A DNA stretch of 64,000 nt from Candidatus Hydrogenedentota bacterium. GTDB lineage: Bacteria > Hydrogenedentota > Hydrogenedentia > Hydrogenedentales > JAGMZX01. How positions within the stretch are numbered: the first letter of the stretch is position 1; every line of letters starts with the position of its first letter. The notes under the pieces were generated by a model that saw only the letters and a list, made by a program, of their open reading frames with translations, was not told the DNA's origin and searched no databases. Positions 105 through 54,595 of the stretch are shown in pieces. The position numbers and the translations under genes are program-made. Location of the stretch: contig JAKQEQ010000086.1 in the NCBI GenBank assembly GCA_029556545.1, forward strand, positions 23,182 to 87,181, written 5' to 3'.

Positions 105-1505
105 ATGCGTGACGAAACGGACATCCTGATCCTTGGGGCGGGCATGACGGGCCTGTGCGCGGCGCATTACGCGGTCGAGCTGTTTGGCCGCGACCGGATA
201 CTGGTCGTCGATGCGGCGGATGCGCCGGGCGGTACGGCCCGCACGGACCGTGTGGACGGCTTCACCATCGAGTGGGGACCGAACGGATTCCTGGACAAGG
301 AACCGAAGACGTTGGAATGGATGGCGGACCTCGGCCTGGAAAACGAGCTTGTGCGCGTGAACGAAGCGGCGGCGCACCGGTTCATTCTCCGGGGCGGGCG
401 GTTGCACGAGGTCAAGCCGCCACCCGGGTTCCTGGTCTCGCCGCTGCTCTCGGTGCGTGGGCGGGCGCGTCTGCTGTGCGAACCGCTGATTCCGGGTAGA
501 CGGGACGACGCGCCGGAGTCCATTTGGGATTTCGCGGCGCGGCGCATCGGCCGCGAGGCGGCGGACATTCTGGTCAGCCCGATGGTCACGGGCATCTTCG
601 GGGGCGATGCGAAGCAATTGAGCCTCGAACACTGCTTTCCGCGCATGGCGGAGTTGGAGCGGACCTACGGCGGGCTGTTCAAGGCGATGCGCGCGCTGCG
701 CAAGAGCGGTGCGTCGGCCATGGGGCCTTCCGGCACGCTTACCAGCCTGCGGGACGGCATCGGCGGCGTGGCGGAGGCGGTGCAGGCACGGCTCGGGGAC
801 CGCATGCGGTTCGGCGTACAAGTCACGGGCATTGCGCCGCTGCCGGACGGCGGATTTCGGGTCGATACGGCGGGGTCGAGAATGAGCCCTCACCCTCACC
901 CGCTCCCGCGGGAAGAGGGAATCACGGCGCGTAACGTGATCGTGGCGCTGCCCGCGTATGGGGCGGCGGGGTGCTGCGCCGCGTTCGGCAGTCAACTCAC
1001 CGCGGCGCTTGAAGGCATCCGCTACGCGGGCATCACGGTTGTATCGGCGGGGTACCGGCGGGATCAGGTGGGCCACGACTTGAACGGTTTCGGTTTTCTC
1101 GTGCCGCGCACGGAGGGCAAGCGACTGCTCGGGTGCCTCTGGGACTCGACGCTGTTTCCGGGGCGCGCGCCGGAGGAACATGTCCTGCTACGGGCGATGT
1201 ACGGGGGCTACTCGGACCCGGAGGCCGTCGGGCTGAGCGACGGCGAACTGCTCGAATACCTGCGGCGCGAGGTGCATCCTCTCCTGCGCATCTCCGGCGA
1301 TCCCGAACTACTCCGCATCTACCGGCATCCGCGCGGCATCCCGCAATACCTCCTCGGGCACGAGGCGCGCCTGCGCGCCGTCGAGGCCGCGGAAACGCGT
1401 TTTCCGGGCCTCATTTTCGCCGGAAACGCCTACCGAGGCATCGGCTTGAACGACTGCGTGCTGTCCGCGCTGCGCGCCGTTGCGCGATTGGAACCGCCGG
1501 GTTGA
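105..1505 (+). CDS. hemY: protoporphyrinogen / coproporphyrinogen oxidase, HemY type
   Basis: FAD-dependent oxidase of late haem biosynthesis, 466 aa, the usual size for the HemY family. The N-terminal FAD-binding motif GAGMTGL is at residues 11-17. It is followed by the family block EWGPNGFLDKEP near residue 64 and the C-terminal flavin-contacting block FAGNAYRGIGLNDCV near residue 440. The ATG follows the stop of the preceding frame directly, which suggests an operon. Odd feature: residues about 262-272 (PHPHPLPREEG) are encoded by a 33-nt palindromic repeat at 887-919, inserted in frame in a surface-type segment before the conserved NVIVALPA strand. Whether the substrate is protoporphyrinogen or coproporphyrinogen cannot be told from sequence alone. 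Confidence 0.88.
   Translation: MRDETDILILGAGMTGLCAAHYAVELFGRDRILVVDAADAPGGTARTDRVDGFTIEWGPNGFLDKEPKTLEWMADLGLENELVRVNEAAAHRFILRGGRLHEVKPPPGFLVSPLLSVRGRARLLCEPLIPGRRDDAPESIWDFAARRIGREAADILVSPMVTGIFGGDAKQLSLEHCFPRMAELERTYGGLFKAMRALRKSGASAMGPSGTLTSLRDGIGGVAEAVQARLGDRMRFGVQVTGIAPLPDGGFRVDTAGSRMSPHPHPLPREEGITARNVIVALPAYGAAGCCAAFGSQLTAALEGIRYAGITVVSAGYRRDQVGHDLNGFGFLVPRTEGKRLLGCLWDSTLFPGRAPEEHVLLRAMYGGYSDPEAVGLSDGELLEYLRREVHPLLRISGDPELLRIYRHPRGIPQYLLGHEARLRAVEAAETRFPGLIFAGNAYRGIGLNDCVLSALRAVARLEPPG
887..919 (+). repeat. 33-nt dispersed palindromic repeat, copy 1 (in frame inside hemY)
   Basis: The element runs from CCCTCACCC to GGGAAGAGGG. A second copy of exactly the same length lies at 54516-54548 inside murF, with 29 of 33 positions identical; mismatches are at element positions 10, 12, 16 and 22. 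It is 11 codons long, so insertion preserves the reading frame. Its 3' half can fold back on itself (CTCCCGCGGGAAGAG). Similar CCCTCACCC...GGGAGAGGG elements are familiar to me as intergenic REP-like repeats in many bacteria. Confidence 0.8.
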
Positions 1506-1555
1506 GCGGCGTCCTTTCTTGTTTCGGCGGCCATGCCGCGCGGCGTTCAACGCGG

Positions 1556-1585
1556 TTGCCCGTTGGGGTGCGGGGGCACTATACT
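1556..1585 (+). promoter_or_regulatory. probable sigma70 promoter of lolCD
   Basis: TTGCCC at 1556-1561 and TATACT at 1580-1585 are separated by 18 nt. They lie about 40 nt upstream of the lolC ATG at 1626. The -10 is good (5 of 6) and the -35 is moderate. The position between hemY and lolC fits a separate transcription unit. Confidence 0.45.
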
Positions 1586-1625
1586 CCGTTCTCGACCGGA
1601 GCCTCCGGCGCAATTCCCGGGGAGT

Positions 1626-2918
1626 ATGCACCTCGTGCGATTTGAGTTGTTTGTCGCGGCGCGCTACCTGCGCAGCAAACGCCGCAATCGCTTCGTCAGC
1701 CTGATCGCGATCATTTCGGTGGCGGGCGTGTGCGTGGGCGTTATGGCGCTTATCGTGGTCATGAGCGTCATGACCGGATTCGACATCGCGCTGCGCGACG
1801 CCATCATCGGGAACCGCGCCCATCTTACCGTGCTGCCCAGTTTCGGCGGCCGCCTCGAAGACCCCGACCAGGCCATCGCGCGCCTGCGCGCCGTCGCGCC
1901 CGAGATCGTGGCGGCGGGCCCGCTGGCGCAGGTCGAGGCGCTGATCACCCACGACCAGAACTCGACCGGTGCGTACATCCTCGGCGTGGACCCGGTCCGG
2001 GAGCAGGAAATCACGATGCTCTCGGAGAACCTGACCACCCAGGGCGGGCGCAAGTATGGCGCGGGCGCGTTGCCGGGCGAGAAGGAGATCGTGCTGGGGT
2101 ACCGGCTAGCGCAGCGCCTTCTCGGCGCGCACTACGCGGACCCGAACCTGATGATCGGCCGGCGGGTGACCGTCACGACGGCGCGGCAAACCCTGACCCC
2201 GCTCGGGCCGCGCAGGGGCAGCCAGATTTGGCTGCGTGTCAGCGGCATCTCGCAGGCGAAGATGTCCGAGTTCGACACGTTGTATGCGTTCGTGGACATT
2301 CCGACCGCGCAGATGCTCACCGGCGAAAGCGGCGTGGACGGCATCCACATGAAGCTGCGCGACCCGTTCCTCGCCGAGACGGTGAAGCGCCGCATCAACG
2401 AGGATACGGACCTGCCCTATCAAGCCATCACGTGGTACGACAGTCAGGCCGAGTTTTTCGAGGCGCTCTACCAGGAAAAGCTGGCCATGTTCATCATCCT
2501 CGCGTTCATCATTCTGGTCGCGGCATTCAACATCACCAGCACGCTGATCATGGTCGTGATGGAGAAGCGGCGCGACATCGGCATCCTGCGCACGATCGGC
2601 ACGAGCACGCGATCCATATTTCAATTGTTCATCTTCGAGGGACTGATGATCGGCCTGACGGGCACCGTCGCCGGGCTGATTCTCGGCACGCTGTTCGCCC
2701 ACAACATCAACCCGATCATGGTGTTCATCGCGAAAGCGATCGGCTGGGACATCTTCAACAGCACGATCTATTACTTCGACGGCGTCCCGGTGGCGGTCAT
2801 GCCGGGGGACATTTTCTGGGTGTGCGTGTCGGCGGTCATCCTGACGTTGATCTCGACCCTGTATCCGGCGTGGAGCGCGGTGCGCGTCGACCCGGTGGAT
2901 GCCTTGCGCTATGAATAA
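1626..2918 (+). CDS. lolC: lipoprotein-releasing ABC transporter permease LolC/LolE
   Basis: Inner-membrane permease that extracts mature lipoproteins from the inner membrane and hands them to LolA. The frame is open from 1533, but the ATG at 1626 is preferred: it has a close GGGGAG ribosome site and gives the family N-terminus HLVRFELFVAARYLRSKRRN. Length is 430 aa, close to the usual 400-415. A first membrane helix lies around residues 22-47, followed by a large periplasmic domain. Three more helices lie in the last third, with the FtsX-type coupling segment EKRRDIGILRTIG after the second helix. The stop overlaps the lolD start by 8 nt, as expected for a co-translated LolCD pair. A single permease gene suggests a LolC2D2 homodimer arrangement rather than LolCDE. 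Confidence 0.9.
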   Translation: MHLVRFELFVAARYLRSKRRNRFVSLIAIISVAGVCVGVMALIVVMSVMTGFDIALRDAIIGNRAHLTVLPSFGGRLEDPDQAIARLRAVAPEIVAAGPLAQVEALITHDQNSTGAYILGVDPVREQEITMLSENLTTQGGRKYGAGALPGEKEIVLGYRLAQRLLGAHYADPNLMIGRRVTVTTARQTLTPLGPRRGSQIWLRVSGISQAKMSEFDTLYAFVDIPTAQMLTGESGVDGIHMKLRDPFLAETVKRRINEDTDLPYQAITWYDSQAEFFEALYQEKLAMFIILAFIILVAAFNITSTLIMVVMEKRRDIGILRTIGTSTRSIFQLFIFEGLMIGLTGTVAGLILGTLFAHNINPIMVFIAKAIGWDIFNSTIYYFDGVPVAVMPGDIFWVCVSAVILTLISTLYPAWSAVRVDPVDALRYE

Positions 2919-3624
2919 CGTGCTTGCATGCAAAGACGTGGTAAAGACGTTCCGCGACGGCGCGCGCGAGTTGCGCATCCTGTGCGGCGTGGACCTCGAG
3001 GTGCGCGAGGGCGAGTCGCTGGCGATCAGCGGGCCCTCGGGCGTGGGCAAGAGCACGCTCCTGCACATCCTGGGCACGCTCGATCGCCCTACAAGCGGCG
3101 ACGTGTTCTTCCGCGGCGCGTCTCTGGCAAGAATGAGCCGCAGCGCCGTCAACCGCATCCGCAACGAGGACATCGGCTTCGTATTCCAGTTCTACCACTT
3201 GCTGCCCGAGTTCACGGCGCTCGAAAACGTCATGATGCCCGCGCTCTGCAAGGGCGCCGCGCGCGGGGTGTGCCACGACCGCGCCGCGGAGCTTCTCGGG
3301 AAGGTCGGGCTCGCGGACCGCGTGTCGCATAAGCCGGGCAAGCTCAGCGGCGGCGAGCAACAGCGCGTCGCCATCGCCCGGGCTCTTTACAACCGGCCGA
3401 GCGTCGTACTCGGCGATGAGCCGACCGGCAACCTCGACGAGCATACGGGCGCGGGGATAATCGAACTGCTGCTGGACCTGAACCGTTCCGAAGGCGTAAC
3501 GCTGGTCTTCGTCACCCACGACGAGGCGCTGGCGCGACGCGCCCACCGCTGGGTGCACCTGCACGAAGGAAGAGCGTACCCGCGCGGCGAAACGCCGGAC
3601 CTCGGGAACGCGGGCGTCGATTAG
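2911..3624 (+). CDS. lolD: lipoprotein-releasing ABC transporter ATPase LolD
   Basis: ATPase partner of LolC, 237 aa. Walker A is GPSGVGKST at residues 41-49, the signature is LSGGEQQRVAIARAL, and Walker B is VVLGDEPTGNLD followed by the switch-region FVTHD. The ATG at 2911 lies inside the end of lolC; an in-frame ATG 12 nt upstream exists but would lengthen the overlap. The LolD/MacB-like subfamily is supported by the adjacent FtsX-type permease. The gene converges on the sulfatase gene, the two stop codons overlapping by a few bases, so no room remains for a terminator between them. Confidence 0.93.
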   Translation: MNNVLACKDVVKTFRDGARELRILCGVDLEVREGESLAISGPSGVGKSTLLHILGTLDRPTSGDVFFRGASLARMSRSAVNRIRNEDIGFVFQFYHLLPEFTALENVMMPALCKGAARGVCHDRAAELLGKVGLADRVSHKPGKLSGGEQQRVAIARALYNRPSVVLGDEPTGNLDEHTGAGIIELLLDLNRSEGVTLVFVTHDEALARRAHRWVHLHEGRAYPRGETPDLGNAGVD

Positions 3625-5072
3625 CCGAGGCGCTTGCCTTCCCGGTCCGTGGACCAATAGGCGTCGAATTCGGTGTCGCCGTGGTCGCGCATCCAGCCAT
3701 CGAGCATGTCGGCGAGCATGCGTTTGGTCTCGCGATGGGCCGGGTCGCTCGCGAGATTCACCATTTCATCCGGATCATTCTCGATATCGTACAACTCCTC
3801 GCCGTGCCGGATGTAACGCGTGTATTTGAACGCGCTCGTGCGGACCATGCGAATCGGATTCACCCACCGCTGCTTGTTGTAGTACTGCCCAACGACGAAC
3901 GCGCGCTCGGGCATCGCGCCCGCGCCGGTCAGGAACGGACGCAGCGATTGCCCGTCCGCGGCGCCGGGGTCCGCCCCGGCGAAATCGCACACCGTCGGCA
4001 ACACGTCCGTTAACGGGGCGAAGGCGTCCGTGGCGCGCGGCGCGACACCGCCGCACGCGTCGGGCACGCGGATGATAAGCGGCACGCGGACCAGGTGCTC
4101 GTACATGAATGGGCCCTTGAAGATGAGGCCGTGGTTCGCGTCCATGTCGCCGTGGTCCGAAAGGAGAACGACGATCGTGGACTCGGCGAGTCCAAGTGCA
4201 TCGAGTCGTTTCAGCACCGCGCCGATCTCGGCGTCGACCATGCGGCATTTCTCGCGGTAGAGCGCGCGATAGCGCTCCCAGAAGACGCGCGGCTTGTTGT
4301 AAAGCAGGTCGCCTTGGTCCTCGCGCATGAACCGCAGTTGTGGCGCGGGTTTCTTCGTCAAGTCGTCCCGCCAGGACGGCGGCAGCGGGACCGGGACCTC
4401 GGGCGTCTCGATATCGCCTGTCAGACCCTTTCGTGTGAATTCGTAAATGTCGTGGGGGTTAATGTAATTGACGAACAGGGCGAAGGGTGTCTCCGGCAAA
4501 TGGCGGCGATGTTCGAGATAGAACAGCGCCTTCTCCGTTGCGCCGGCCTGCGCGTCGCCGTCCAGTTCCGAAACGTCGAAGTGCGTCTTGAAATGATCGC
4601 GATTGCCCAAATGCCATTTGCCGAAATACGCGGTGTGGTAACCCGCACGGCGCAGCTTCGCGCCGAGCGTATCGGTCCCCTCCGCCAGCGGCGGCACGGG
4701 CGCGCCGTCGTGCCGCACGGACTCGATGTTCCCGATGACGCGCGTCTTGTGCGGGTACAGGCCCGTGTAGATGGACGATCGGCTCGCGGAACACTGGGGC
4801 GTCGTGCAGAAGGCGTGTGTGAACACCGTGCCGCCGCGCGCGAGCCCGTCGATGTGGGGCGTGTCGAAAAACGGGTCCACCGCGCCATAGGCCCGCCAGT
4901 GCTGCTGGTCCGTCGTGATGAAGACTATGTTCGGCCGGGGCCGGGGATCGACGGCGCGAATGGTTCCGGGAGCCCCGAGCAGGATCGCGCCCGCCGCCGC
5001 CGTTTGCAGAAAGCGCCTGCGCGGGAGCCGCCCCGCAAGTGAGTGTATTGTTTGCTCGCACATGGTGGTCAA
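3621..5072 (-). CDS. Tat-type secreted sulfatase (family S1)
   Basis: Sulfate ester hydrolase of the alkaline-phosphatase superfamily, 483 aa. The N-terminus carries a twin-arginine-like signal (LPRRRFLQTAAAGAILL, residues 17-33), so export in folded form is likely. The metal site begins with NIVFITTDQQHWR near residue 48. The formylglycine precursor is Cys94 in CSASR (residues 94-98), the C-x-A-x-R variant of the C-x-P-x-R motif. Further conserved elements are GKWHLG and SDHGDM. FGly formation needs a maturase (FGE or anSME), not encoded in this window. Substrate is unknown; phyla rich in such enzymes use them on sulfated polysaccharides. Start alternatives are the ATGs at 5072 and 5063. Confidence 0.85.
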   Translation of the reverse strand: MTTMCEQTIHSLAGRLPRRRFLQTAAAGAILLGAPGTIRAVDPRPRPNIVFITTDQQHWRAYGAVDPFFDTPHIDGLARGGTVFTHAFCTTPQCSASRSSIYTGLYPHKTRVIGNIESVRHDGAPVPPLAEGTDTLGAKLRRAGYHTAYFGKWHLGNRDHFKTHFDVSELDGDAQAGATEKALFYLEHRRHLPETPFALFVNYINPHDIYEFTRKGLTGDIETPEVPVPLPPSWRDDLTKKPAPQLRFMREDQGDLLYNKPRVFWERYRALYREKCRMVDAEIGAVLKRLDALGLAESTIVVLLSDHGDMDANHGLIFKGPFMYEHLVRVPLIIRVPDACGGVAPRATDAFAPLTDVLPTVCDFAGADPGAADGQSLRPFLTGAGAMPERAFVVGQYYNKQRWVNPIRMVRTSAFKYTRYIRHGEELYDIENDPDEMVNLASDPAHRETKRMLADMLDGWMRDHGDTEFDAYWSTDREGKRLG

Positions 5073-5391
5073 AATTTTCCCGCTATTCGGACACTTGTCG
5101 CGCTATTATGCAGAAGTTCTCGACGGAATGGTATCGCAACTTGAGGCGGAAACTTCCGTAAGACTTGCCGCACAGCCCGCACACGGAGCCTCGCCTGTGA
5201 GTCACCTCCGCACACGATGCGGCGGCAGCGGCTAAGCAAACGGCTGATTGTCGGCCTTTCAAAGTGTGCGAACGATGGGATCTCTTCAACGTGGGACCAG
5301 CCGGGATGTAATCAGCATCTGCTGCATCAGACCTTGCGATCGCGTTCGAAGACGGGAACGCCGATTCTCCGGGAACTAACGGGAATCCATG
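5073..5391. other. intergenic region, nothing convincing
   Basis: This 319-nt spacer separates two minus-strand genes. I find no plausible coding frame (the 68-codon minus-strand frame at 5083-5289 has no family look and no ribosome site), no tRNA-like fold and no clear hairpin with a T-run. A CATAAT on the minus strand near 5104-5109 could be a -10 for the sulfatase, but no matching -35 is visible. Confidence 0.5.
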
Positions 5392-8136
5392 TCATTTCGC
5401 CTGGACGTTTATCCAAAGGTTGAAGTCCCACGATTCCCGCTGCCCCGGCCACTTGTGGACGCGCCATTCATCCCAGAACACCACGGCGGGATAGGCGGGC
5501 GCCCAGCGCTCGATGCAAAGGTAGACTATCGGATCGGGCGTTGGGGCCGTCGTAAACGTACCCCAATACGTTGAGAATTCATCACAGGGCACAACGCGAA
5601 GGACCGGCTGGCGCAATCGCGTGGGAGGACGCGAGAAATCGATGCTGCCTGATTCGGTCGTGGGAAGGTCCCAAGCTGACAGCAAGATGTTACTAGCGGA
5701 CGGGTTTCGCGCGGAAACGATTACCTCGTAGATCGTCGCAGGCTCAAGGCCGCGCACAAAGCACCCGAAAGGAGTCGATGCGCTCCCGCCGCTGCCATCT
5801 ATCAGCCATTCCTGACGCACGGCGGCGTGTCCCGCCAAGACGTGTTCCGCCTCCGGCTGAATGGTGAACGACGGTCCGCCGTGGGTAAATCCCATCGGAG
5901 CGCCGTCCGCCCAATCCTCGAAGCCGCCATTGGCAAGTAGATTGTGCTTTGTTGCCTTCATCGCGCGAAAATGCAGGGGACGCATTTCATTCCGCAGTAC
6001 CTTGTATCGCCGGCGGCTTGTCCAATCGTCCGCCATCGTCATCATGAACCATAAGGGAATCGATTCCGCGCCAGTTACTTCGTAGAGCCCTTTCCATTGG
6101 TGTTCCTGGCTCTTCCAGAGTTCAAAACCGTTGAACTCGGAATACCGGTACCGCTGCCATGTTTTCGACTCATAGACGGGTAGAAAGTAGCGGAGACTGT
6201 CCCCGGGGTCCCGCGGCCCGTCACCCCGCACCAGGCAACGATAGGACAAGGTGGGAAGCCCGGTTTTTGCCTCCTTCGTATAGAGACCGATCGGCACGTC
6301 TTGGCCCCTCCCGAACTCGGCCACAAGCAATCGCTGCCTCATGAGCCACTTCGGTCTTTCGCTCGCTGGCTGCGCCTCTTCCGGGGTCTCCGCGATACCG
6401 ATTCGCATAACCCGCGGGTCCGCGCCGGTTGTCGTTTCAGTCTCGAGGCGGCGCAGGGGACTCGCGGCGTATCGGGAAAAAAGGTCGGCGTAAGCGTGAT
6501 GCTGGTAGGCGCGCGCGGCGACCAGCGGAACCGTGAGAGCGACGCCCAGCACAACGGCGGACAGTGCCATCCTGAGCGCCTCGGGCCTTCGGAGGGTTCC
6601 GAGGATGCGCATGCCGCGGCCCGCCGTGCTCGATGAGCGGCGAACGCCGGCAAGGGCCGGGGCGACTCGCACCATCGCGTGGCAAGTGAAGAGCAGCGGC
6701 AGCCACCACAGGAATTCGAGGTGAAAGTGATGTCGCAAATCGTACTGTAGCGAGGTGTAGCCACAGTAGTAGATCACAACCAGCGCGAACGCCAGGCCGT
6801 AACGGACCGCTATGCCGGAGAGCGTCAGAAAACAGAACAGCAGCAGGGGGACTTGCAGGCGGGACATTCCGTGGAGCCAGTCAAAACGAAGCGCGAACAG
6901 ATGCTCGATCATGGGCACGCGCACGGGACCGTAACGGGACTCATGAGACGCCACAAATACTCCGTAACGCATCTTGCTCAGTACGGCGGCGTACCACCGC
7001 ATGATGATATCCGCCGGGAATGTGGATACGTATTGACGGAGAAAGGCGTTGCAGGCTTCGTCGTATCGCGGGGTATAGATGCGGAGCGGGTCGTTGTCCA
7101 AGTCCGCGGCGTTGCGTTCGGCGTAGCCGCCCGCAATATCGGACGTGATCGCGTCATTGGACGCCGGAGCAAGTTCGTAATCGACACCGCCGACGCCCAG
7201 GAAGTCATCAAAGGGCGGAAGCAGGCCGTAGATTAGCACGTGTCCGGACGAACTGCCCTGCTCTTCCATGCCTGCCCACAGCGGCCATGAGGTTGCGAAA
7301 AAGGTCGCGAGAAGGAGCAATGCAGCCAGGGCCTTTTCCCAGAGCCGTCGCCGCAGCCCCCCAGGAAGAAACAGGAACAGGACGGCAATTGTCGGCCAGA
7401 CACAGATTAAGACGTCCTTGCGAAACCCCATCATCAGACCGAGGAAGCTTCCCAGGGCGAGGCAGGTACCGATGGTCTTGGTGCGAGACGTGCCGTGTTT
7501 CACCAGATAGCCGGCGGCGCACACCGCGGCGATGATTGGCGGCGCCTTCGAGTAGTCTCGCAAGTGCGGCAGGAAATACAAATTGGTTGGCGAAAAGATG
7601 ATCAGCAACGTTCCAACCAATGCCAAAGGCCAGCCAACCAACAATCGGAAGGCCAGATACGAGAACACGGCGACCAAGCCGTAAAGGGCCGCGTACAAAG
7701 GCGTGATCGCGTCCCAAGAGATGACGCCGGCGTACCGCCAAATCCAGCCCACGACGTGGAGACAGTAACGCCATCGCAAATGGGTTTGTTCGAGAGGCCG
7801 CGTCTGGAGAGTATCGGGCAAGTCGGCCGCGGTGATAGCCAACGTTCGTGTTTCCAGATTGAGGAATTCCGTCAGGCCCGGCACACTCCGCCATTCCGGG
7901 TTCACAAACCCGCGCCCCAACGCGATCATGACCGCCGGCGCATAGTTGCCCTGCTCGAAACGAGCATAACCGCCGAACAGGCTCGAATAGCGGCCGCCCA
8001 CCATGATCGCGAGCACGAATAGCGCAGCAACGGCCAAGCCCTCCAGGAAGGTTCCTCTGGAGCGGGAAGCCGACGCACAGACTCGCTTGAGAGGAGTGAG
8101 ACGTTTCCTTTGGCTTCGGAGTTCTATCGCTGACAC
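5392..8136 (-). CDS. large polytopic membrane protein with C-terminal extracytoplasmic domain (unknown)
   Basis: 914 aa. After about 30 basic residues, residues 30-560 hold roughly ten hydrophobic helices (for example LEGLAVAALFVLAIMVGG and ALVGTLLIIFSPTNLYFLP). The segment PHLRDYSKAPP between helices is polar and charged, as in GT-C glycosyltransferase loops. The remaining 350 residues look extracytoplasmic. They include a stretch starting NLLANGGFEDW near residue 735, the usual opening of a carbohydrate-binding-like beta-sandwich, followed by a Trp-rich tail. The GT-C or O-mannosyl-transferase relation is an inference from this layout; no catalytic motif is certain. No operon partner is evident. 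Confidence 0.7.
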   Translation of the reverse strand: MSAIELRSQRKRLTPLKRVCASASRSRGTFLEGLAVAALFVLAIMVGGRYSSLFGGYARFEQGNYAPAVMIALGRGFVNPEWRSVPGLTEFLNLETRTLAITAADLPDTLQTRPLEQTHLRWRYCLHVVGWIWRYAGVISWDAITPLYAALYGLVAVFSYLAFRLLVGWPLALVGTLLIIFSPTNLYFLPHLRDYSKAPPIIAAVCAAGYLVKHGTSRTKTIGTCLALGSFLGLMMGFRKDVLICVWPTIAVLFLFLPGGLRRRLWEKALAALLLLATFFATSWPLWAGMEEQGSSSGHVLIYGLLPPFDDFLGVGGVDYELAPASNDAITSDIAGGYAERNAADLDNDPLRIYTPRYDEACNAFLRQYVSTFPADIIMRWYAAVLSKMRYGVFVASHESRYGPVRVPMIEHLFALRFDWLHGMSRLQVPLLLFCFLTLSGIAVRYGLAFALVVIYYCGYTSLQYDLRHHFHLEFLWWLPLLFTCHAMVRVAPALAGVRRSSSTAGRGMRILGTLRRPEALRMALSAVVLGVALTVPLVAARAYQHHAYADLFSRYAASPLRRLETETTTGADPRVMRIGIAETPEEAQPASERPKWLMRQRLLVAEFGRGQDVPIGLYTKEAKTGLPTLSYRCLVRGDGPRDPGDSLRYFLPVYESKTWQRYRYSEFNGFELWKSQEHQWKGLYEVTGAESIPLWFMMTMADDWTSRRRYKVLRNEMRPLHFRAMKATKHNLLANGGFEDWADGAPMGFTHGGPSFTIQPEAEHVLAGHAAVRQEWLIDGSGGSASTPFGCFVRGLEPATIYEVIVSARNPSASNILLSAWDLPTTESGSIDFSRPPTRLRQPVLRVVPCDEFSTYWGTFTTAPTPDPIVYLCIERWAPAYPAVVFWDEWRVHKWPGQRESWDFNLWINVQAK

Positions 8137-10189: not shown

Positions 10190-12208
<2,019 letters not shown>

Positions 12209-15562: not shown

Positions 15563-16030
15563 TCATTCTTCCAGCGTGAACCGCCGCACCGCGCCCGACG
15601 CCGCGAGTTCTAGTTGCGCCTCCCGCGACACCGCGCGCAACACCCGGCCCTCGTGGACCACCTCGCCGGTCGCGGCGAGGCGGTAGCCCCGGCCCTGGCG
15701 CGTCACGGCGACGGAGAAGCGTCCGCCGCCGAGGGGCGTGTTGTCTTCGCCGCTATAATTGGGGTCGATGCGTAAGCACGCAACCGCATTCTCGATGCCG
15801 GCCTCGGCGAGTTGCCGCGCCACCTCGGTCTTGACGGCGCGGGTCGATTCGCGAAACGTGATGTGATAGAGGCGCAGGGCCGCCGCCGCGCCGATGGACA
15901 CCACAGCCAGCAGCACCACGGCCATCAGCAGCACGGAACCCGCCTCAGTTCGTAGCGCAGCCTTCAGGTTGTTCTTAGGACACGCTGAAGCGTGGACTAC
16001 GAACACGCTTCTTTGTTCTCCGTCGTTCAT
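15563..16030 (-). CDS. minor pseudopilin, PilX/GspK-like
   Basis: 155 aa from the ATG at 16030, which overlaps the stop of the preceding gene. One hydrophobic helix (residues 30-52, AGSVLLMAVVLLAVVSIGAA) is followed by QLAEAGIENAVACLRIDPN, typical of PilX/GspK N-terminal regions that lack the +5 Glu. It is much shorter than a true GspK (about 300 aa). Residues about 9-18 (FVVHASACPK) are encoded by a dispersed palindromic repeat at 15978-16007, so the original N-terminus was probably different. It sits between two other pseudopilin genes and likely belongs to the pseudopilus tip. Confidence 0.7.
   Translation of the reverse strand: MNDGEQRSVFVVHASACPKNNLKAALRTEAGSVLLMAVVLLAVVSIGAAAALRLYHITFRESTRAVKTEVARQLAEAGIENAVACLRIDPNYSGEDNTPLGGGRFSVAVTRQGRGYRLAATGEVVHEGRVLRAVSREAQLELAASGAVRRFTLEE
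15978..16007. repeat. dispersed palindromic repeat family III, copy inside pseudopilin gene
   Basis: The core CACGCTGAAGCGTG folds into a hairpin (CACGCT / AGCGTG with a 2-nt loop), followed by GACTACGAAC. The same core plus TACTACGAAC occurs at 41566-41593, and a partial copy at 41596-41617. Here it is translated on the minus strand as VVHASAC within the minor pseudopilin. Confidence 0.75.
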
Positions 16031-41565: not shown

Positions 41566-41617
41566 GGGACACGCTGAAGCGTGTACTACGAACAAGACAC
41601 GCTGATGCGTGGGCTAC
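41566..41617. repeat. dispersed palindromic repeat family III, tandem copies
   Basis: A full copy (41566-41593; hairpin ACACGCT-GA-AGCGTGT then ACTACGAAC) is followed by a partial copy (GACACGCTGATGCGTGGGCTAC, 41596-41617). The second overlaps the last codons of the CoA-transferase gene and supplies its stop codon. The family is the same as at 15978-16007. Confidence 0.75.
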
Positions 41618-42450
41618 AATCTGGTTTGGACCGCCGCGAGGGGCAAATCGCGTTCAACGGCCCAACGCTCCCAAGCGATCGCGGTGCGCGTGCGAAAGAC
41701 GGAGTGCAGATCGTCGTACCCGGCGCGGTCCAATCCAAGTTCACGCTTCAAACGATCAAGAAAGTGCGTCTCGAGCGCCGCGACGGCCAGCCAGCCGTCC
41801 GCGGCGGCGTACAGGTTGTAGTTGGGCAAGCCGCCGCCGAGCACGCCTCCGTGTGCCGTAGCGCCGTGCCGCAAAGGCGCGGCAAGGGCCGCCGCCGCGT
41901 CGGAAAGCGCCACCAACCGATGCCCGGCGTCCGCGCCCCGCTCCCGCGCGAGGACCAGTGCCAACCCTTCGCTTGCGGCGCGCTCTGCACCCGCGAGGTC
42001 CGCCACGAGCGTGGGCGGCATCCGGGGCGGCGTCAAGAGCCCATACGCGGCGGCGTAGGTCAGGTCGTGGCCCGCGCGATTTTCATTCGGCGGCGGATAC
42101 CCGACAATGGCGACATGACACAGGCGAGGCCAGGCGACATGCAGCGCGCTCCAGTCCAGCCCGAGATTCGCCAAGGCGGCAGGACGGTTCGACGTGATGA
42201 GCAGATCGGCATCGGCCAGGTGCGCGTCCAGTTCCGCGCGTTGCGCCGTGTCCTTGAGGTCCAGCGTGACGACACGCATGCCGCGCGTGAGTTCGGCGTA
42301 CCACGCCGGGGACGCAATCGCGAGTGGGTCTCCGGAAGGCGGCTCGACTTTGGTGACCCGCGCGCCAAGGTCGCGCAAACGCGCGGCGGCGGCGGGGCCG
42401 GGCACATTGGCGGCGACACATAGTACGCGCACCTCATGCAGAAGCGGCAT
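41614..42450 (-). CDS. class III CoA-transferase (CaiB/BaiF), short
   Basis: 278 aa, against about 380-410 for the family. The N-terminal Rossmann half is complete (VPGPAAAARLRDLGARVTKVEPPSGDP; ADLLITSNRP). The catalytic Asp region is MPPTLVADLAGAERAASEGLALVLA near residue 150, followed by NYNLYAAADGWLAVAALE. The protein stops where the usual C-terminal part of about 80-100 residues would begin, and its stop codon is formed by a dispersed repeat (41596-41617). A truncated but possibly functional enzyme, or a gene shortened by the repeat, are both possible. Natural short homologues are known in the AMACR-like group. CoA acceptor unknown. Confidence 0.72.
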   Translation of the reverse strand: MPLLHEVRVLCVAANVPGPAAAARLRDLGARVTKVEPPSGDPLAIASPAWYAELTRGMRVVTLDLKDTAQRAELDAHLADADLLITSNRPAALANLGLDWSALHVAWPRLCHVAIVGYPPPNENRAGHDLTYAAAYGLLTPPRMPPTLVADLAGAERAASEGLALVLARERGADAGHRLVALSDAAAALAAPLRHGATAHGGVLGGGLPNYNLYAAADGWLAVAALETHFLDRLKRELGLDRAGYDDLHSVFRTRTAIAWERWAVERDLPLAAVQTRL

Positions 42451-45772: not shown

Positions 45773-45781
45773 ATGGGTATC

Positions 45782-46432: not shown

Positions 46433-46457
46433 GGCCTCGTATGCGGAGGCGCATTCT

Positions 46458-46565
46458 ATGGAAATTGTCGAGACGGTCGTCGAGTTCGTAGTGGCGAACA
46501 AATGGTGGTTTATCGCGGTAATTCCGATTTTGCTGGCCGTGATTGCGGTCAAGGCGCAAGGCTGA
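46458..46565 (+). CDS. 35-aa single-helix membrane microprotein
   Basis: ATG 46458 to TGA 46565, 35 residues: an acidic-amphipathic start (MEIVETVVEFVVANK), then one strongly hydrophobic helix (WWFIAVIPILLAVIAV) and KAQG. GGAGG lies 8 nt upstream of the ATG, the ideal spacing. It follows the zinc-ribbon gene by 25 nt and stops 9 nt before the convergent esterase stop, so it fills the gap completely. No homologue is recognised. A true ORF is favoured by the ribosome site and the clear membrane-helix pattern, but chance cannot be excluded. Confidence 0.55.
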   Translation: MEIVETVVEFVVANKWWFIAVIPILLAVIAVKAQG

Positions 46566-46574
46566 TCCCAGGTC

Positions 46575-47477: not shown

Positions 47478-47664
47478 GCAGGCTCCTCCGCCTACATGAT
47501 AATCGGTCGGAACACACTTCCGCCACCGCGTGCGCGAAGAATGGGCAAGCCTGTCTGACAGTGCTGAGTCCCGTCTGGTAGAATGCCGATGCGCGCGCCG
47601 CGGACGTTCAGCGAGGGCATGGGCCTCACGCCGTGCGGGCGGCGGCGTTCGGGGAGACACTCCA

Positions 47665-47820
47665 ATGGCGACTTTCGACGGTATGGATGCCAAGGCGTCC
47701 GGTGACTGGCTCGGCCTGCTTTCCTTGTTCGCGGGCCTTCGGTTGCTGCTGGCGCTCGTGGTCGGCGCGGCCTTTACACTGATGCTCCTCTTCGGGGTCC
47801 CGGTGGAAGAAGAAGCATAG
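47665..47820 (+). CDS. 51-aa single-helix membrane protein
   Basis: ATG 47665 to TAG 47820. GGGGAG lies 8 nt upstream. After a polar start (MATFDGMDAKASGDWLG) comes a helix of about 26 hydrophobic residues (LLSLFAGLRLLLALVVGAAFTLMLLF), ending GVPVEEEA. It occupies a 385-nt plus-strand gap between the esterase and murG genes and converges on murG. No family recognised. The acidic C-terminus and single helix resemble small accessory or stress membrane proteins. The open frame extends upstream to 47530 but without a ribosome site. Confidence 0.5.
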   Translation: MATFDGMDAKASGDWLGLLSLFAGLRLLLALVVGAAFTLMLLFGVPVEEEA

Positions 47821-47862
47821 CCGACAGCTTCCCCGCCCGCTCTCGCCCGTTGACGAGGCCAC

Positions 47863-48975: not shown

Positions 48976-49060
48976 CCGCGTTCCTCAGTGCGTGGCGTCG
49001 CTATCGGGCAAGTGTACGCGCGCGGACCGGGCCAAGGTCAACCCCGCGGTCCCACGTATC

Positions 49061-49086
49061 GCTCGCGGCTCTTCCGAGCCGCGAGC
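49061..49086. repeat. perfect 11-bp hairpin between ftsW and murG
   Basis: GCTCGCGGCTC (49061-49071) and GAGCCGCGAGC (49076-49086) pair perfectly around a 4-nt loop. In the transcript of the dcw operon the loop reads GGAA, a stable GNRA tetraloop. No T-run follows, so it is not a standard terminator; it may be an RNA-processing or mRNA-stability element, or another dispersed repeat. Confidence 0.75.
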
Positions 49087-49100
49087 CTGCTCACGAGGCG

Positions 49101-50231
49101 TCACGCATGCGCTGGCTGCTGGGCGGGCATAATCGAGCGGCCCTCGCGTTCCTCGACGCGCACCTGCGCGCCCACGTTCACGAGCACACCCGCGCAGGCC
49201 AGGAACACAATCAACGCGGTGCCGCCGTGGCTGATAAACGGAAGCGGCATGCCCTTGGTCGGCGCCAGGCCGATGGTGACGGCCATGATGAACGCGGCTT
49301 GAAACGCGATCAGGACGGCGCACCCGGAGGCCAGGAGCGCGCCGAACATGTCGGGGGCGCGATGCGCGATGCGGAACGAGACAAACGTGAGGGCGGCGAA
49401 GAGCAGGACAATGAGGAGGGTACCCGCCAGGCCGCGTTCCTCGCCGATGACCGAGAAGATGAAGTCGGTGTGCGCGGCGAACAGGTAATCGAGCTTCTGC
49501 TCCCCGGCGCCGAGCCCCTGCCCCCACGCGCCCCCTTCCGCGAATCCGCGCAGCGACTGCACCAACTGATAGCTGGCGTCGTCGCGATGGGCTGCGGGGT
49601 CCCGAAAGGCGAGCATGCGCTCGATGCGGTGCGGAGTGGTGTACGCGATATAGAGCACGCCGCCGATCCCCGCCGCGCCGGTGAGCGCGAGATATACGGG
49701 GTTGACGCCGGCGTTCCACATGACCAGCAGCGCCACGGCCATCAGGACGGCCGGCAGCCCGAGATCGTTTTCGAGGAACACGAGGGTGGCGTAAAGCCCC
49801 GTAACCGCTATCGGCGGGAGGAAACCGAACCAGAACCTGTTGAGGTGCATGCGCATGACGGTCAAGTTTCCCGCCAGCCAGACAACAAGGGCGAATTTCG
49901 CGCATTCGGAGGGCTGAAATTGAAACGGGCCAATCTTGAACCAGCGGCGCGCGCCGTTTACCTCCTCGCTGAAATACGGCAGCAACACAAGAATCAAGAA
50001 CAGTATCGAAACGCCCTGGATAATCCAGAACAGCTTCTTCCCGCCAAAGCCGTGATAGTCGAAGCGCGCGCAGAAGAAAAACGCCCCCAAGCCAAGCACC
50101 GCGCAAGCGATCTGGCGTTTGAGCGCGCCGGTCCCGTCGCCCCCGAAGCCGGTGGCGCTGTACACCATGAGCACCCCGCAGGTGACAAGCAGCAGCACGA
50201 TGACGGTGAGCGCGGTGGTTTCCCTGGTCAT
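49101..50231 (-). CDS. ftsW: SEDS peptidoglycan polymerase FtsW
   Basis: 376 aa from the ATG at 50231, which has GGAGGGG upstream and overlaps the murD stop (ATGA). About 10 membrane helices. SEDS signatures: NGARRWFKIGPFQFQPSECAKFALV near residue 92, FLENDLGLPAVLMAVAL near residue 155, QSLRGFAEGGAWGQGLG, HTDFIFSVIGEERGLAGT near residue 265, and PTKGMPLPFISHGGTALI near residue 325. It polymerises glycan strands at the septum with the PBP encoded upstream in the same operon. A 125-nt gap with a hairpin separates it from murG. Confidence 0.94.
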   Translation of the reverse strand: MTRETTALTVIVLLLVTCGVLMVYSATGFGGDGTGALKRQIACAVLGLGAFFFCARFDYHGFGGKKLFWIIQGVSILFLILVLLPYFSEEVNGARRWFKIGPFQFQPSECAKFALVVWLAGNLTVMRMHLNRFWFGFLPPIAVTGLYATLVFLENDLGLPAVLMAVALLVMWNAGVNPVYLALTGAAGIGGVLYIAYTTPHRIERMLAFRDPAAHRDDASYQLVQSLRGFAEGGAWGQGLGAGEQKLDYLFAAHTDFIFSVIGEERGLAGTLLIVLLFAALTFVSFRIAHRAPDMFGALLASGCAVLIAFQAAFIMAVTIGLAPTKGMPLPFISHGGTALIVFLACAGVLVNVGAQVRVEEREGRSIMPAQQPAHA

Positions 50232-51589
50232 GACGACCCCTCCTCGATGTTGTCGCGAGACGTCCCTTCGCGCACGCAGGCGCGGAAATGGCGGCCCCGT
50301 TCCTCGAAGTTCTGGTACATATCGAAACTGGCGCACGCAGGCGAAAGCAGCACGATGTCGCCGTCCGCGGCGCAAGCGCGCGCAAGGCGCACGGCGTCCT
50401 CCATGCTTGCGGCGCGGGTGGCCGGCGCGAACGCGCCCAGTTCCTTCTCGATACGCGGGGCGTCTTCGCCGAGGGTGATCAACGCCTTCACGCGATCGCG
50501 CACGAGCGGGCCCAAGCCCAGGTACGGGTCGCCCTTGCCGCGTCCGCCCGCAATCAGGACGATTGGCCGGCCGAAGCTCTCGATCGCCACGCGAAGACTA
50601 TCCACGTTGGTCGATTTCGAGTCGTTGTAGTAATCCACGCCGTCAATGGTGGCGACATGCTCGATGCGGTGTTCGACGCCCCGGAACCCGCGCAGGCCCG
50701 CGATCACGCCCCCTTGCGGGAACGCGCCCGCCCGCGTCACGGCGAGGGCGGCGGCCACATTCTGCGCGTTGTGGCGCCCGGGAAGCGGCGAATCGGCGGC
50801 GACAGCGACAACGGTCTCCCCGGACCGGTACGCGGTCCCGTCGAACCACACGCCGTCCGCGACCGGGCGTTCGAGGCTGAAACCGATTCGTCGCGCGCCG
50901 GGTGGCACGGGCATTGCCGCGACGCAAGGATCGTCCTCGTTAAGCACGGCGGCGTCCCCCTCCCCCTGGAAGGCGAACAGGCGAGCCTTCGCCGCAGCGT
51001 AGTCCGCCATCGTCTTGTGGCGCGCGAGATGGTCCGGCGTCAGGTTGAGGACGCAGCCAATCCACGGACGAAACGATATAGACATTTCGAGTTGATAGCT
51101 GCTGACCTCGAGCACGATAAACGCGGGTGGCGGATCGGCGAGGACCGCCGCCGAGAACGGCACCGCATTGTTGCCCGCCAGCAATACAGGGAGGCCGCAG
51201 GCGTCGATCATGGCGCGGAGCAGTTCCGTCGTGGTCGTCTTGCCGTTCGTGCCGGTCACGGCCAGCACGCGGGAACGGCAACAACGCCCCGCGAGTTCCA
51301 TTTCGCCGAGCAAGGGCACGCCGCGACGGCGCATCTCGCGCGGAAGCGGCGCATCCAGCGGCACACCCGGACTGGGCACCGCCAACGCAACGCCGTCGAA
51401 GGCGCGGTCGGTGTGGCCGCCGGTCTCGTAAGGCACGCCCAGCGCGTCGAGAGCCGTGCAAAGCGCCGGCCTGCGCGGACCGAGTTCGCTGACGAAGGGG
51501 CGCGCGCCGACGCGGCGCAGCAGACGGGCGAGGGCGACGGCCGTCTCGCCCAGTCCGATAATCGTCACGTTGGCGTCGCGCAGTTCCAT
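50228..51589 (-). CDS. murD: UDP-MurNAc-L-alanine:D-glutamate ligase MurD
   Basis: 453 aa from the ATG at 51589; the frame is open to 51685 but that part overlaps mraY and is not MurD-like. N-terminal Rossmann GLGETAVALARLL, ATP loop AVTGTNGKTTTTELLRAMI near residue 108, NLTPDHLARHKTMADYAAAKARLF near residue 180, and YYNDSKSTNVDSLRVAIESF near residue 310. Adds D-Glu to the nucleotide precursor in the cytoplasm. It lies 8 nt after the mraY stop and is translationally coupled to ftsW. Confidence 0.94.
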   Translation of the reverse strand: MELRDANVTIIGLGETAVALARLLRRVGARPFVSELGPRRPALCTALDALGVPYETGGHTDRAFDGVALAVPSPGVPLDAPLPREMRRRGVPLLGEMELAGRCCRSRVLAVTGTNGKTTTTELLRAMIDACGLPVLLAGNNAVPFSAAVLADPPPAFIVLEVSSYQLEMSISFRPWIGCVLNLTPDHLARHKTMADYAAAKARLFAFQGEGDAAVLNEDDPCVAAMPVPPGARRIGFSLERPVADGVWFDGTAYRSGETVVAVAADSPLPGRHNAQNVAAALAVTRAGAFPQGGVIAGLRGFRGVEHRIEHVATIDGVDYYNDSKSTNVDSLRVAIESFGRPIVLIAGGRGKGDPYLGLGPLVRDRVKALITLGEDAPRIEKELGAFAPATRAASMEDAVRLARACAADGDIVLLSPACASFDMYQNFEERGRHFRACVREGTSRDNIEEGSS

Positions 51590-51597
51590 TACGTTCT

Positions 51598-53082
51598 TCA
51601 CCGCAGTTTGAGGGTGCCCAGGCTCATGATCGCGAAAAGGATCGCGATGATATAGAAGCGCATCGTCACTTTCGTCTCGGACCATCCGAGCAACTCGAAG
51701 TGATGGTGCAACGGGGCCATGCGAAAGACGCGACGGCCCGTCAGCTTGAACGAGGCCACTTGTATCAGCACGCTGAGCGCTTCGAGCACAAACATCCCCG
51801 CAACAATGGGCAGCAGCAGTTCCTGTTTCGTCAGGATAGCCATCGTGCCGAGCGCGCCGCCGAGCGCCAGCGATCCCGTGTCCCCCATGAAGACTTCCGC
51901 CGGATGGGCGTTGAACCAGAGAAACCCGAGCCCCGCCCCGAGCAGGGTCGCGCCAAACACGAACAGCTCGCTGGCCTCGGGCACGTAGGTCAGATAGAGA
52001 TAATGAGACCAGTCAGACCGGCTGACGATATAGGCAATTCCCGTATAGGCCATGAGCGAGATAATCGAAACCCCAGCGGCAAGGCCGTCGAGGCCGTCGG
52101 TAAGGTTGACGGCGTTCGAGGCGGCGACCAGGATAAAGATGACCAGGACAACGTAGAACGCGCCGAGCGGGATGAGCAGGTTCTTGAAGCCTGGGACATT
52201 GACCTTGGTGTGCAGGTCCGTGCCGCTTCCGACGATATGCACGGGCAGGGCGCTTTCGAGGAGCATACGGTTGCGGCGCAGGCGTTCCGGCCGTTCGAGC
52301 GTCTCGGGATCGCGCGCGACAAGCCCCGTCAACTCGACCGGCATCTCGTAGCCGGCCCACACCGCCGGGTCGTAGAAATCGGCGCGGTCCAGGAGCCGGT
52401 CAAGACCCCGGATTATGGCCCTTTCCTGCGTATCGGTCATGCGGTCCTTGCCGACGGCGGTCCGCACCGCTTCCTGGGCCTCTTCGTCCAGCCACTCCCA
52501 CACCCGGCGATCCGGTGAGTCCGCCGGCGCGACCGCCCCCGCCGCGAGAACATTGACGAGCCCGGGCCAGTCGCGGATATCGTTCGGGGCCACGTCCATG
52601 GCGCCAACGGTAATCGGGAAGACAATCAGGTAGCCGCCAAGCATCGCGCCGGTGAGTATCTGCCCGATGAACTTGGCGCGCGCGCTGAGGCCCTCGTTGC
52701 GTTTGCGCCGCAACTTGATGAAGTCGTCCAGAAAGCCGACCGCACCCAAGGCGCAGAAGACCAACACGGCGAGCCACAGCAGGCGATTCGTCAGACGGCC
52801 CCAGAACAGGAGGGCGGCCACGGCCGCAAGGATAATCATGGCGCCGCCCATCGTGGGCGTGCCGGCCTTTCCCTTGTGGAGTTCGTGCAAGGCCGCTACG
52901 TGCTCTTTGCGGATGTACTGCCCAATCTTGAGGGACGTCAACAGACGGATGATGCCCGGCCCGAACAGAAGACAGAAAAGGAACGCGGTCACAGCGGCGC
53001 CGCCCGCGCGCACCGTGTGGTAGGTAAACACGTTGAACGGCCCGAAAACGGGCACGAGTTTGAGGGCCAGGTAGTACAGCAT
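51598..53082 (-). CDS. mraY: phospho-MurNAc-pentapeptide transferase MraY with large periplasmic insertion
   Basis: 494 aa from the ATG at 53082, which aligns MLYYLALKLVPVFGPFNVFTY with the family N-terminus; an ATG at 53124 is in frame. Catalytic landmarks are intact: KAGTPTMGG near residue 72, the Asp pair FLDDFIK (119-120), NAVNLTDGLDGLA near residue 323, GFLWFNAHPAEVFMGDTGSLALGG, and MAPLHHHFE. The family is usually 320-360 aa. Here about 135 hydrophilic residues (about 162-298) lie between helix 4 and helix 5, a loop that faces the periplasm. The insert is rich in Asp, Glu and Arg, has no Cys and no evident domain. It forms lipid I from UDP-MurNAc-pentapeptide and undecaprenyl phosphate. 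Confidence 0.94.
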   Translation of the reverse strand: MLYYLALKLVPVFGPFNVFTYHTVRAGGAAVTAFLFCLLFGPGIIRLLTSLKIGQYIRKEHVAALHELHKGKAGTPTMGGAMIILAAVAALLFWGRLTNRLLWLAVLVFCALGAVGFLDDFIKLRRKRNEGLSARAKFIGQILTGAMLGGYLIVFPITVGAMDVAPNDIRDWPGLVNVLAAGAVAPADSPDRRVWEWLDEEAQEAVRTAVGKDRMTDTQERAIIRGLDRLLDRADFYDPAVWAGYEMPVELTGLVARDPETLERPERLRRNRMLLESALPVHIVGSGTDLHTKVNVPGFKNLLIPLGAFYVVLVIFILVAASNAVNLTDGLDGLAAGVSIISLMAYTGIAYIVSRSDWSHYLYLTYVPEASELFVFGATLLGAGLGFLWFNAHPAEVFMGDTGSLALGGALGTMAILTKQELLLPIVAGMFVLEALSVLIQVASFKLTGRRVFRMAPLHHHFELLGWSETKVTMRFYIIAILFAIMSLGTLKLR

Positions 53083-53155
53083 GGCCGTTGTCACCGCAAC
53101 TTCATTGTTCGCCGCATTCCTCAAGGGTCGTGGGCGCGTGGCCGCCCGACGACCG

Positions 53156-54595
53156 TTATAACCAGGCGTCCGCGTACCGCGTCGCGTATACGGTGCGCAA
53201 CGCCTCGATTACCTTTTCCATGCGCATGCCCCGCGATCCCTTCACCAGCAGCCTGTCGCCGAATTGCGCCCGCGCCGCCACCGCCTCCGCGATGACGCGG
53301 TGGTCGGCGAGGACCGTCGCCTCGGCTACGCCCGCCGCGCCTGCGGCTTCCGCCATCTCCTCCGCGTTCGGGCCATAGGCGAATAAGGCCGCGACGCCCG
53401 CCGCGCCCGCCCGACGCCCGACTTCCCGGTGGAGTTCCCGCGCCGCGTCGCCCAGTTCGAGCATGGAGCCCAACGCGGCGAAGCGCGCGCCCGGACCGGG
53501 CCGGTCGGCGAGAGCTTCGAGCGCGGCGGCCATGCTGGCGGGGTTCGCATTGTACGAATCGTCGAGGATTTCAAGGGGACCGAGACGCAGTATGCGGAAA
53601 TGCGCCAACTTGGCGCAGGCCTCGCGCAAGGGTCCTTCGAACTCGTCGATGCCGTGGCGCAGCCCCACCGCGACGGCAATCAGCACGTGCACGGCATGAG
53701 CGCGCACGGCCAACGGCAGGCGCAAGCGCCCGATGGGGTCAATCGTCAATAGCATGTCACCGGAGGCGTCGAAGTCGCAAGCGCGCAGCGCCACGTCGCC
53801 GGACGCGCCAAAGCGCACCTGGTCGCCGCCGTAGGCCACGGCAAGCCGCACGCACCACGGGTCGTCGGTGTTCACGTAGAAGCAGCCGTCCGGCGGAAGC
53901 GCCTCGACAATCTCCCCCTTCGCGCGGGCCACCGCGTCGAGGCTGCCAAAGCCCTCGAGGTGCGCCGGCGTCACGACCGTGATCGCGGACTCGGTGGGCC
54001 GGACCAGCGAGCACAGGGCCGCAATTTCGCCGGGGTGGTTCGCGCCCAGCTCCATCACGGCAAATTCGGTGGTCTCGTCCATGCCAAGCAACGACAGTGG
54101 ACAACCGATGTCGTTGTTGAGGTTGCCTTCGGTCTTGGCGACGACGTAGCGCGAGGCCAGCACCGCCGCCGTGAGGTCCTTGGCGGTCGTCTTGCCGCAC
54201 GATCCCGTGATGGCCAGAACCGGAATATCGTGCTTCGCACGGTGATGCGCCGCGAAGGTCTGCAAGGCGCGAAGGGGGTCCGCGACTACGAGGCACGGGC
54301 CCTCCGCATGAAACTCGCGGCACAGTGCGCCCGCGGCGCCCCGCTGAAAGGCTTCGGGAACAAAGGCGTCGCCGTCGAAGCTCGGGCCGCGCAGCGCCAC
54401 GAACAGGTCGCCCACCCGCAGTTGGCGCGTGTCAGTGCAGACCCGCGCGAAGCCGGTTGTTGTGGCCGGTCTCCCGACCGCGCCACCCGCCCGACCGCAG
54501 GTCTCCACTTGGTAACCCTCACCCCCGCCCTCTCCCTCGGGAAGAGGGGCGCCGACGATGCGGGCCAACTCGGCCAGTGTATATCGCCAGGCCAT
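53156..54595 (-). CDS. murF: UDP-MurNAc-tripeptide:D-Ala-D-Ala ligase MurF with repeat-derived insert
   Basis: 479 aa. ATP loop AITGSCGKTTAKDLTAAVL near residue 117, NNDIGCPLSLLGMDETTEFAVMELGANHPGEIA, and DDSYNANPASMAAALEALAD near residue 345 are diagnostic. The N-terminal substrate domain is interrupted: residues about 16-27 are encoded by a 33-nt palindromic repeat (54516-54548) and about 30-46 by another dispersed element (54457-54506). Homologues go from the first helix (here LAELARIVGA) to the VCTDTRQLRVGDLFVAL strand in about a dozen residues. Its ATG overlaps the murE stop by one base. The enzyme is likely still functional because all core motifs are present. Confidence 0.93.
   Translation of the reverse strand: MAWRYTLAELARIVGAPLPEGEGGGEGYQVETCGRAGGAVGRPATTTGFARVCTDTRQLRVGDLFVALRGPSFDGDAFVPEAFQRGAAGALCREFHAEGPCLVVADPLRALQTFAAHHRAKHDIPVLAITGSCGKTTAKDLTAAVLASRYVVAKTEGNLNNDIGCPLSLLGMDETTEFAVMELGANHPGEIAALCSLVRPTESAITVVTPAHLEGFGSLDAVARAKGEIVEALPPDGCFYVNTDDPWCVRLAVAYGGDQVRFGASGDVALRACDFDASGDMLLTIDPIGRLRLPLAVRAHAVHVLIAVAVGLRHGIDEFEGPLREACAKLAHFRILRLGPLEILDDSYNANPASMAAALEALADRPGPGARFAALGSMLELGDAARELHREVGRRAGAAGVAALFAYGPNAEEMAEAAGAAGVAEATVLADHRVIAEAVAARAQFGDRLLVKGSRGMRMEKVIEALRTVYATRYADAWL
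54457..54506. repeat. dispersed palindromic element II inside murF
   Basis: The segment contains GGTC-TCCC-GACC (54468-54479) as a small hairpin and a near repeat of CCGACCGC. Its shadow and sense translations (GRSGDRPQQ, GRPATTT) are familiar to me from intergenic repeats of high-GC environmental genomes. It abuts the 33-nt element at 54516-54548 and with it forms about 90 nt of foreign-looking DNA inside murF. Confidence 0.55.
54516..54548. repeat. 33-nt dispersed palindromic repeat, copy 2 (in frame inside murF)
   Basis: Same 33-nt length and 29 of 33 identical positions as the copy at 887-919 in hemY. Here it is antisense to the gene, giving PLPEGEGGGEG in MurF, whereas in hemY it is sense, giving PHPHPLPREEG. 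Eleven codons in both cases. Confidence 0.8.

Follow-up and report, generated by a model that had tools for sequence, protein, structure and literature searches.

Palindromic repeats lying in frame within bacterial genes have been published for Rickettsia, for repetitive extragenic palindromes (REPs) and for enterobacterial sequences, so the kind of phenomenon addressed here is already known. Rickettsia palindromic elements (RPEs) are 100–150 bp long and were described from Rickettsia and Wolbachia (PMC2229807, PMC3767692). REPs with a GTAG or CGTC tag occur within open reading frames (ORFs) of several species as short hairpins of 20–40 nt, alone, as dimers or in groups, mostly in Opitutus terrae and R. 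conorii but also in Thauera (Di Nocera et al. 2013, PMC3733652), and the enterobacterial RU-1, RU-2 and RU-3 are small non-autonomous mobile sequences fused in frame to ORFs (Delihas 2007, PMC2759123). The BoxC/PIT/TM_ECO triplex motif follows the pattern 5'-CCCTCNCCC N3-6 GGGNGAGGG N3 GGGNGAGGG-3', in which one base pair at most may be mismatched (Holder et al. 2015, PMC4666352). It has 3610 occurrences in 262 proteobacterial genomes, is linked to local instability, is always intergenic in E. coli MG1655 (23 copies) and, as an isolated strand, forms a stable intrastrand triplex in vitro (PMC4666352). Here, we describe a repeat of this type, named R1, that is found in frame in the hemY and murF genes of a 64,000-nucleotide stretch (the window) of a Candidatus Hydrogenedentota genome.

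The window lies on contig C12 of a 6.1-Mb genome of 195 contigs (the source genome, G000) from an uncultured bacterium. Among named sequences, the best relatives of its MurF are from Candidatus Hydrogenedentota MAGs, in agreement with that phylum. The initial annotation had recognized one 33-nt palindrome in both genes, in sense orientation in hemY (PHPHPLPREEG) and on the opposite strand in murF (PLPEGEGGGEG). An ungapped comparison (29 of 33 bases identical) and the ORF translations bear this out, the hemY copy reading SPHPHPLPREEG. The murF insertion is not a single 33-nt element as had been proposed; it is a composite of 24 codons made of R1 and of a member of a second palindromic family, R2 (Table 1). 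The parallel drawn with RPEs fits the phenomenon, in-frame entry into genes, and finds no support for the kind of element, as R1 is much shorter and fits TM_ECO.

Taken over its copies, the R1 consensus is AA-CCCTCACCC-YRA-CCCTCTCCC-TCG-GGGAGAGGG-RR (33–37 nt); on one strand, it has three arms of 9 nt, one C-rich and two G-rich. In DNA secondary-structure folding of the consensus (z −3.3), two of the arms are rivals for pairing with the remaining one. Its complement, CCCTCTCCC-CGA-GGGAGAGGG-TCG-GGGTGAGGG, fits the TM_ECO pattern, which occurs 33 times exactly and 48 times with at most one mismatch in 531 kb of the source genome, fetched as stretches around the elements. R1 shares with BoxC/PIT/TM_ECO the three 9-nt arms and the loop spacing, a dispersed distribution, inverted pairs and a copy number that is very variable among relatives. 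Judged by its sequence pattern, it is a member of this family and not a new repeat. The murF copy (complement CCCTCTTCC-CGA-GGGAGAGGG-CGG-GGGTGAGGG), with a one-base departure, is within the published definition, and the hemY copy (CCCTCTTCC-CGC-GGGAGCGGG-TGA-GGGTGAGGG), with two, is a decayed member. Where R1 differs is in its host phylum, its partial location inside conserved genes and its frequent junction with R2. The R1 consensus also matches Enterobacter and Azospirillum plasmids and 4370 of 5426 E. coli genomes (median five places), with no annotated feature under the matches listed. Patterns with a 4-nt loop were nearly matchless (none with a GGGAAGAGGG arm, three weak matches for another version), hence a 3-nt loop for R1; a looser pattern was rejected because it mixed R1 with arrays of the CCCTCA/CCCTCG hexamer.

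Both families are repetitive in the source genome. A generalized R1 pattern gave 78 matches at up to three mismatches (28 exact), some of them both-strand duplicates of one palindrome, against none for the reversed-pattern control. At up to four mismatches, the sampled sequence holds 76 non-overlapping copies, and we estimate ∼70–76 for the genome. R2 (consensus near GGAGACCTTCGGTCGGGCCGGTGGCGCGGTCAGGAGACCGGCCACAACGGA, ∼51 nt) has 57–60 copies genome-wide with a control of zero, adjoins R1 at several further loci and is also present as tandem units of 51 bp and 24 bp, while a third palindrome, near CACGGGCGTCCCGCCCGTG, adjoins some R1 copies. Searches of Rfam for the repeats and of the literature for the element peptides returned nothing relevant and no match, respectively; a literature search with R1 strings pointed to an example from E. 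coli. In some R2 copies (L145, L179 and the L290 region; G000:C142, C145 and C179), the first hairpin, GACCTTCGGTC, is swapped for a longer one, GACCACGCGCGGCGCGTGGTC, as if it were an exchangeable module.

To place each cluster relative to genes within the 531-kb sample, its two flanks were scored with a three-periodic coding model of fifth order that had been trained on the fetched sequence. By strict count, 10 of 68 R1 clusters (and four more probably) and 9 of 51 R2 clusters (three more probably) lie in coding sequence, the two counts sharing a few composite clusters. The resulting 19 of 119 (∼16%) compares with 218 of 400 random positions (∼54%) in the same DNA. The elements are thus depleted in genes yet far from absent, and since most copies are intergenic, coding insertions represent a tolerated minority. 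Owing to its short left flank (51 nt from the start codon), the murF copy escaped the automatic test and was counted by alignment. In-frame inserts that add 11 to 35 residues are carried by hemY, murF and some 15–20 other genes. The Pfam-identified hosts comprise polyprenyl synthetase, class II fructose-bisphosphate (FBP) aldolase, an ABC exporter, an FAD-linked oxidase with the insert within its FAD-oxidase_C domain, and DUF6259, HEAT, FG-GAP, TPR and PMT/STT3-like proteins. The R1 consensus has a stop in only one of six frames, and the in-gene copies listed use all five open ones (types PSPQPSPSGRG, PHPHPLPREEG, LTPTLSLGER, PLPEGEGGGEG and LSPRERAGVR). Copies within and between genes do not differ in divergence from the consensus (Mann-Whitney p 0.66), and the idea that in-gene copies are older or younger was dropped on this result. 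In the FAD-linked oxidase (L033:47-1876, G000:C52), R1 is flanked by other translated simple repeats, MRNAECGLSNAECG and NPKSEIRNLKS, which makes one domain a repeat mosaic.

Alignment with homologues shows that the extra residues are missing from relatives, the same-genus (sister) genome G001 included. The murF insert, which adds ∼24 residues, is absent from 32 MurF relatives, and residues 1–19 of MurF align with the start of the sister protein, MPWEYTVTRLAQTVGAPTP. For hemY, ∼12 codons are absent from most relatives (29 HemY relatives without the insert), with a 9-codon gap relative to the sister gene. Similarly, none of 14 relatives has the ∼23-residue insert of FBP aldolase, which contains R2 and directly follows the conserved GGEEDGI motif, and 16 of 17 lack the ∼33-residue insert of polyprenyl synthetase, made of R1 and the third palindrome. 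When the window was compared without selection with two sister contigs (∼18 orthologous genes), the HemY and MurF inserts were the only insertions of at least 8 residues specific to the source genome. The AlphaFold2 models of HemY and MurF have a mean predicted local distance difference test (pLDDT) score of 89.2 and 89.5, respectively, and the only segments below 50 are residues 259–269 of HemY, between strands 251–256 and 273–280, and residues 21–41 of MurF. The proposal that the repeats had entered surface-type segments between conserved blocks thus agrees with the models, in which they form loops, and with their absence from homologues. At two of these sites, relatives carry different extra residues: polyprenyl synthetase of the sister genome (L300) has an unrelated-looking insert of ∼20 residues, GRRARAQGRGQTAACAHDAG, and HemY of G028 (L195) has CGRAGARPSPSDPG. 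Such loops may therefore be insertion hot spots.

Table 1. Positions of hemY, murF and their repeat-derived inserts in the window
Feature	Position	Strand	Basis or remark
hemY, protoporphyrinogen oxidase, 466 aa, with R1 insert	105..1505	+	TIGR00562, 249.7 bits, cut-off 97.85 (NCBIfam)
R1 in hemY, in frame, ~residues 261-272	887..919	+	BoxC/TM_ECO type
murF, UDP-MurNAc-tripeptide--D-Ala-D-Ala ligase, 479 aa, R1+R2 insert after residue 19	53156..54595	-	TIGR01143, 365.6 bits, cut-off 288.6 (NCBIfam)
R1 in murF, encodes PLPEGEGGGEG	54516..54548	+ (consensus strand; antisense to murF)	Pattern match
R2 in murF, adjoins R1, encodes ~ETCGRAGGAVGRPATT	54459..54506	-	G000:C12:77640-77687
Net murF insertion, 72 nt = 24 codons	54467..54538	-	Codon alignment with G001; ends uncertain by a few codons
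MurF insert-spanning peptide LPEGEGGGEGYQVETCGR			

These results are in all likelihood explained by a non-autonomous repeat that has recently proliferated and that persists in genes when its insertion keeps the frame and falls in a flexible loop. R1, able to form competing hairpins or, according to published work, an intrastrand triplex, would have multiplied to its present number in the source genome, often beside the R2 hairpin family. Most copies would land between genes, gene-breaking insertions being presumably purged by selection, and the tolerated ones would be translated as an unstructured extension rich in Pro, Gly, Glu and Arg, probably with neutral effect. Tolerance in flexible loops with an open frame is understandable since R1 spans 11 codons and is stop-free in five of six frames, and R2 also lies in frame within genes. 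Of the suggestion of an active or recent process, the recent part is supported by the sister genome, which lacks both inserts and has a single R1 copy, whereas the active part found no support. As to how R1 and R2 move, the hairpin or triplex may stall replication and lead to template switching, or a transposase may act in trans. Several points weigh against this explanation. The two departures of the hemY copy exceed the published definition of the triplex motif; an identity of ∼75% to the sister genome prevents a base-level comparison with the empty site, so that the ends of the insertions are approximate and a target duplication would escape notice; the codon model behind the coding test was built for this work and is only moderately sensitive; and both translation through the inserts and function of the enzymes are predictions from sequence.

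A rival explanation is a REP system of the RAYT type, in which a Y1 (REP-associated tyrosine) transposase of the source genome mobilizes R1 and R2 as cognate REPs. The source genome has five Y1_Tnp loci, the sole R1 copy of the sister genome lies ∼350 bp from a Y1_Tnp gene, and movement by TnpA-REP is the model favoured for REPs in the literature (PMC8266576). In common with tagged REPs, which are hairpins of 20–40 nt, the repeats have a high copy number, mosaics and inverted pairs. We nevertheless consider this system improbable: all five Y1 genes are free of R1 and R2 within 1.5–3 kb, G009, a genome from another family of the same order that is 93% complete, has 157 R1 matches and none to Y1_Tnp, and both repeats are devoid of a GTAG or CGTC end tag and of a linked RAYT gene. 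Column counts over 76 R1 copies gave AA at −2/−1 and RR at +1/+2, with neither tag. Moreover, the Y1 gene of the sister genome (L374, G001:C18) is flanked by several copies, seen by eye, of a different palindrome, AGGGCGTTGCCCTGGG, which is itself a candidate cognate REP of that gene. The hosts differ as well, being mostly metabolic and cell-wall enzymes in the source genome and mainly DNA-repair proteins for tagged REPs. The other described systems are set apart by their elements. RPEs share with R1 and R2 the in-frame entry into pre-existing ORFs without destroying them, at exposed sites of conserved genes and absent from relatives, together with many intergenic copies, and are distinguished by length and by the triplex pattern (33–37 nt for R1, ∼51 nt for R2), as judged from published descriptions. 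RU-1, RU-2 and RU-3, likewise small, non-autonomous and in frame in ORFs, measure 103–168 bp, have features of miniature inverted-repeat transposable elements (MITEs) and are of other sequence.

That the inserts were selected, as a useful linker or as a regulatory element (mRNA hairpin, translation pause or protein interaction), could be suspected from the essential enzymes among the hosts and from sites that are consistently in loops. It is nonetheless very hard to reconcile with hosts that are functionally unrelated, with peptides that differ through reading in five frames, with depletion rather than enrichment in genes and with published tests in which BoxC/PIT had no promoter or terminator activity (PMC4666352). 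That the inserts are low-complexity stretches arisen by chance in genes rich in GC, or an assembly artefact, deserves next to no credence. The C-rich CCCTCA/CCCTCG hexamer is indeed common in tandem arrays of the source genome, which is a metagenome assembly, but the three-arm pattern with its empty control refutes a chance of composition limited to two genes, and both flanks of each insert lie in one orthologous gene (whole-ORF identity to the sister of 77% for HemY and 70% for MurF), unlike a misjoin.

The recently proliferated repeat favoured here is unevenly spread across the phylum. Among 68 genomes, R1 matches numbered 59 in the source genome, 1 in its sister, 157 in G009 and 19, of a variant, in G003, with zero in nearly all others and in the control. 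R1 is abundant only in the source genome, G009 and, as the variant, G003, and R2 in the source genome, G009, G008 and a few more. In a sample of G009 drawn around the listed matches and covering part of the genome, none of 53 R1 and 30 R2 clusters (0 of 83) is in a gene, versus 19 of 119 in the source genome (Fisher p 3e-5). The intergenic placement that describes TM_ECO in MG1655, without being part of its definition, is thus found in G009 and not in the source genome. Of 400 random positions, the coding test scores 144 as in-gene in G009 and 218 in the source genome; this lower sensitivity in G009 weakens the contrast, but it remains (∼9 in-gene clusters expected after scaling). In G008, three R2 clusters of 20 are clearly in genes and one more probably. 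A rather doubtful extension of these data is that lineage-specific activity or permissiveness in this genus admits triplex-motif and R2 repeats to coding sequence at an appreciable rate and so keeps supplying core enzymes with new in-frame loops, whereas in another family of the order both kinds of repeat are confined to intergenic DNA.

We know of no function or mover for TM_ECO/BoxC, which decades of work have treated as a curiosity of intergenic DNA. Its in-frame presence in MurF, HemY, FBP aldolase and polyprenyl synthetase shows that entry into conserved genes and persistence there are possible. In the literature searched, mostly outside subscription journals, we found no report of TM_ECO inside genes, of TM_ECO in this phylum or of R2; the in-gene copies, the large number of copies in Hydrogenedentota, R2 as a companion family and the contrast between the source genome and G009 are new here. 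With similar copy numbers and unlike gene entry, these two genomes offer a natural comparison of insertion mechanism versus selection. For annotation, PLPEGEG, LSPRERVGVR and GRPATT in these genomes should be taken as translated repeats, not as domains.

Other repeats were seen in passing. Intergenic arrays of G009 (L384, L393, L396, L402, L407, L408, L409 and L412) are capped at both ends by inverted R1 copies; their 54-bp unit joins a 21-nt hairpin, CCCTCTCCCNNNGGGAGAGGG, to a conserved 33-nt spacer, and cap-to-cap spacing steps through 66, 120, 174 and 228, equivalent to one to four units. In the source genome, CCCTCA/CCCTCG arrays occur throughout, several at contig ends, and a 6-bp (GAGGGY-type) repeat tract occupies window positions 11423–11931 inside overlapping ORFs on both strands. 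A small palindromic repeat, TGTTCGTAGTCCACGCTTCAGCGTGTCC, with five copies in the 531-kb sample, lies at window positions 15978–16005, 41567–41594 and 41595–41622, apparently between genes or upstream of a start.

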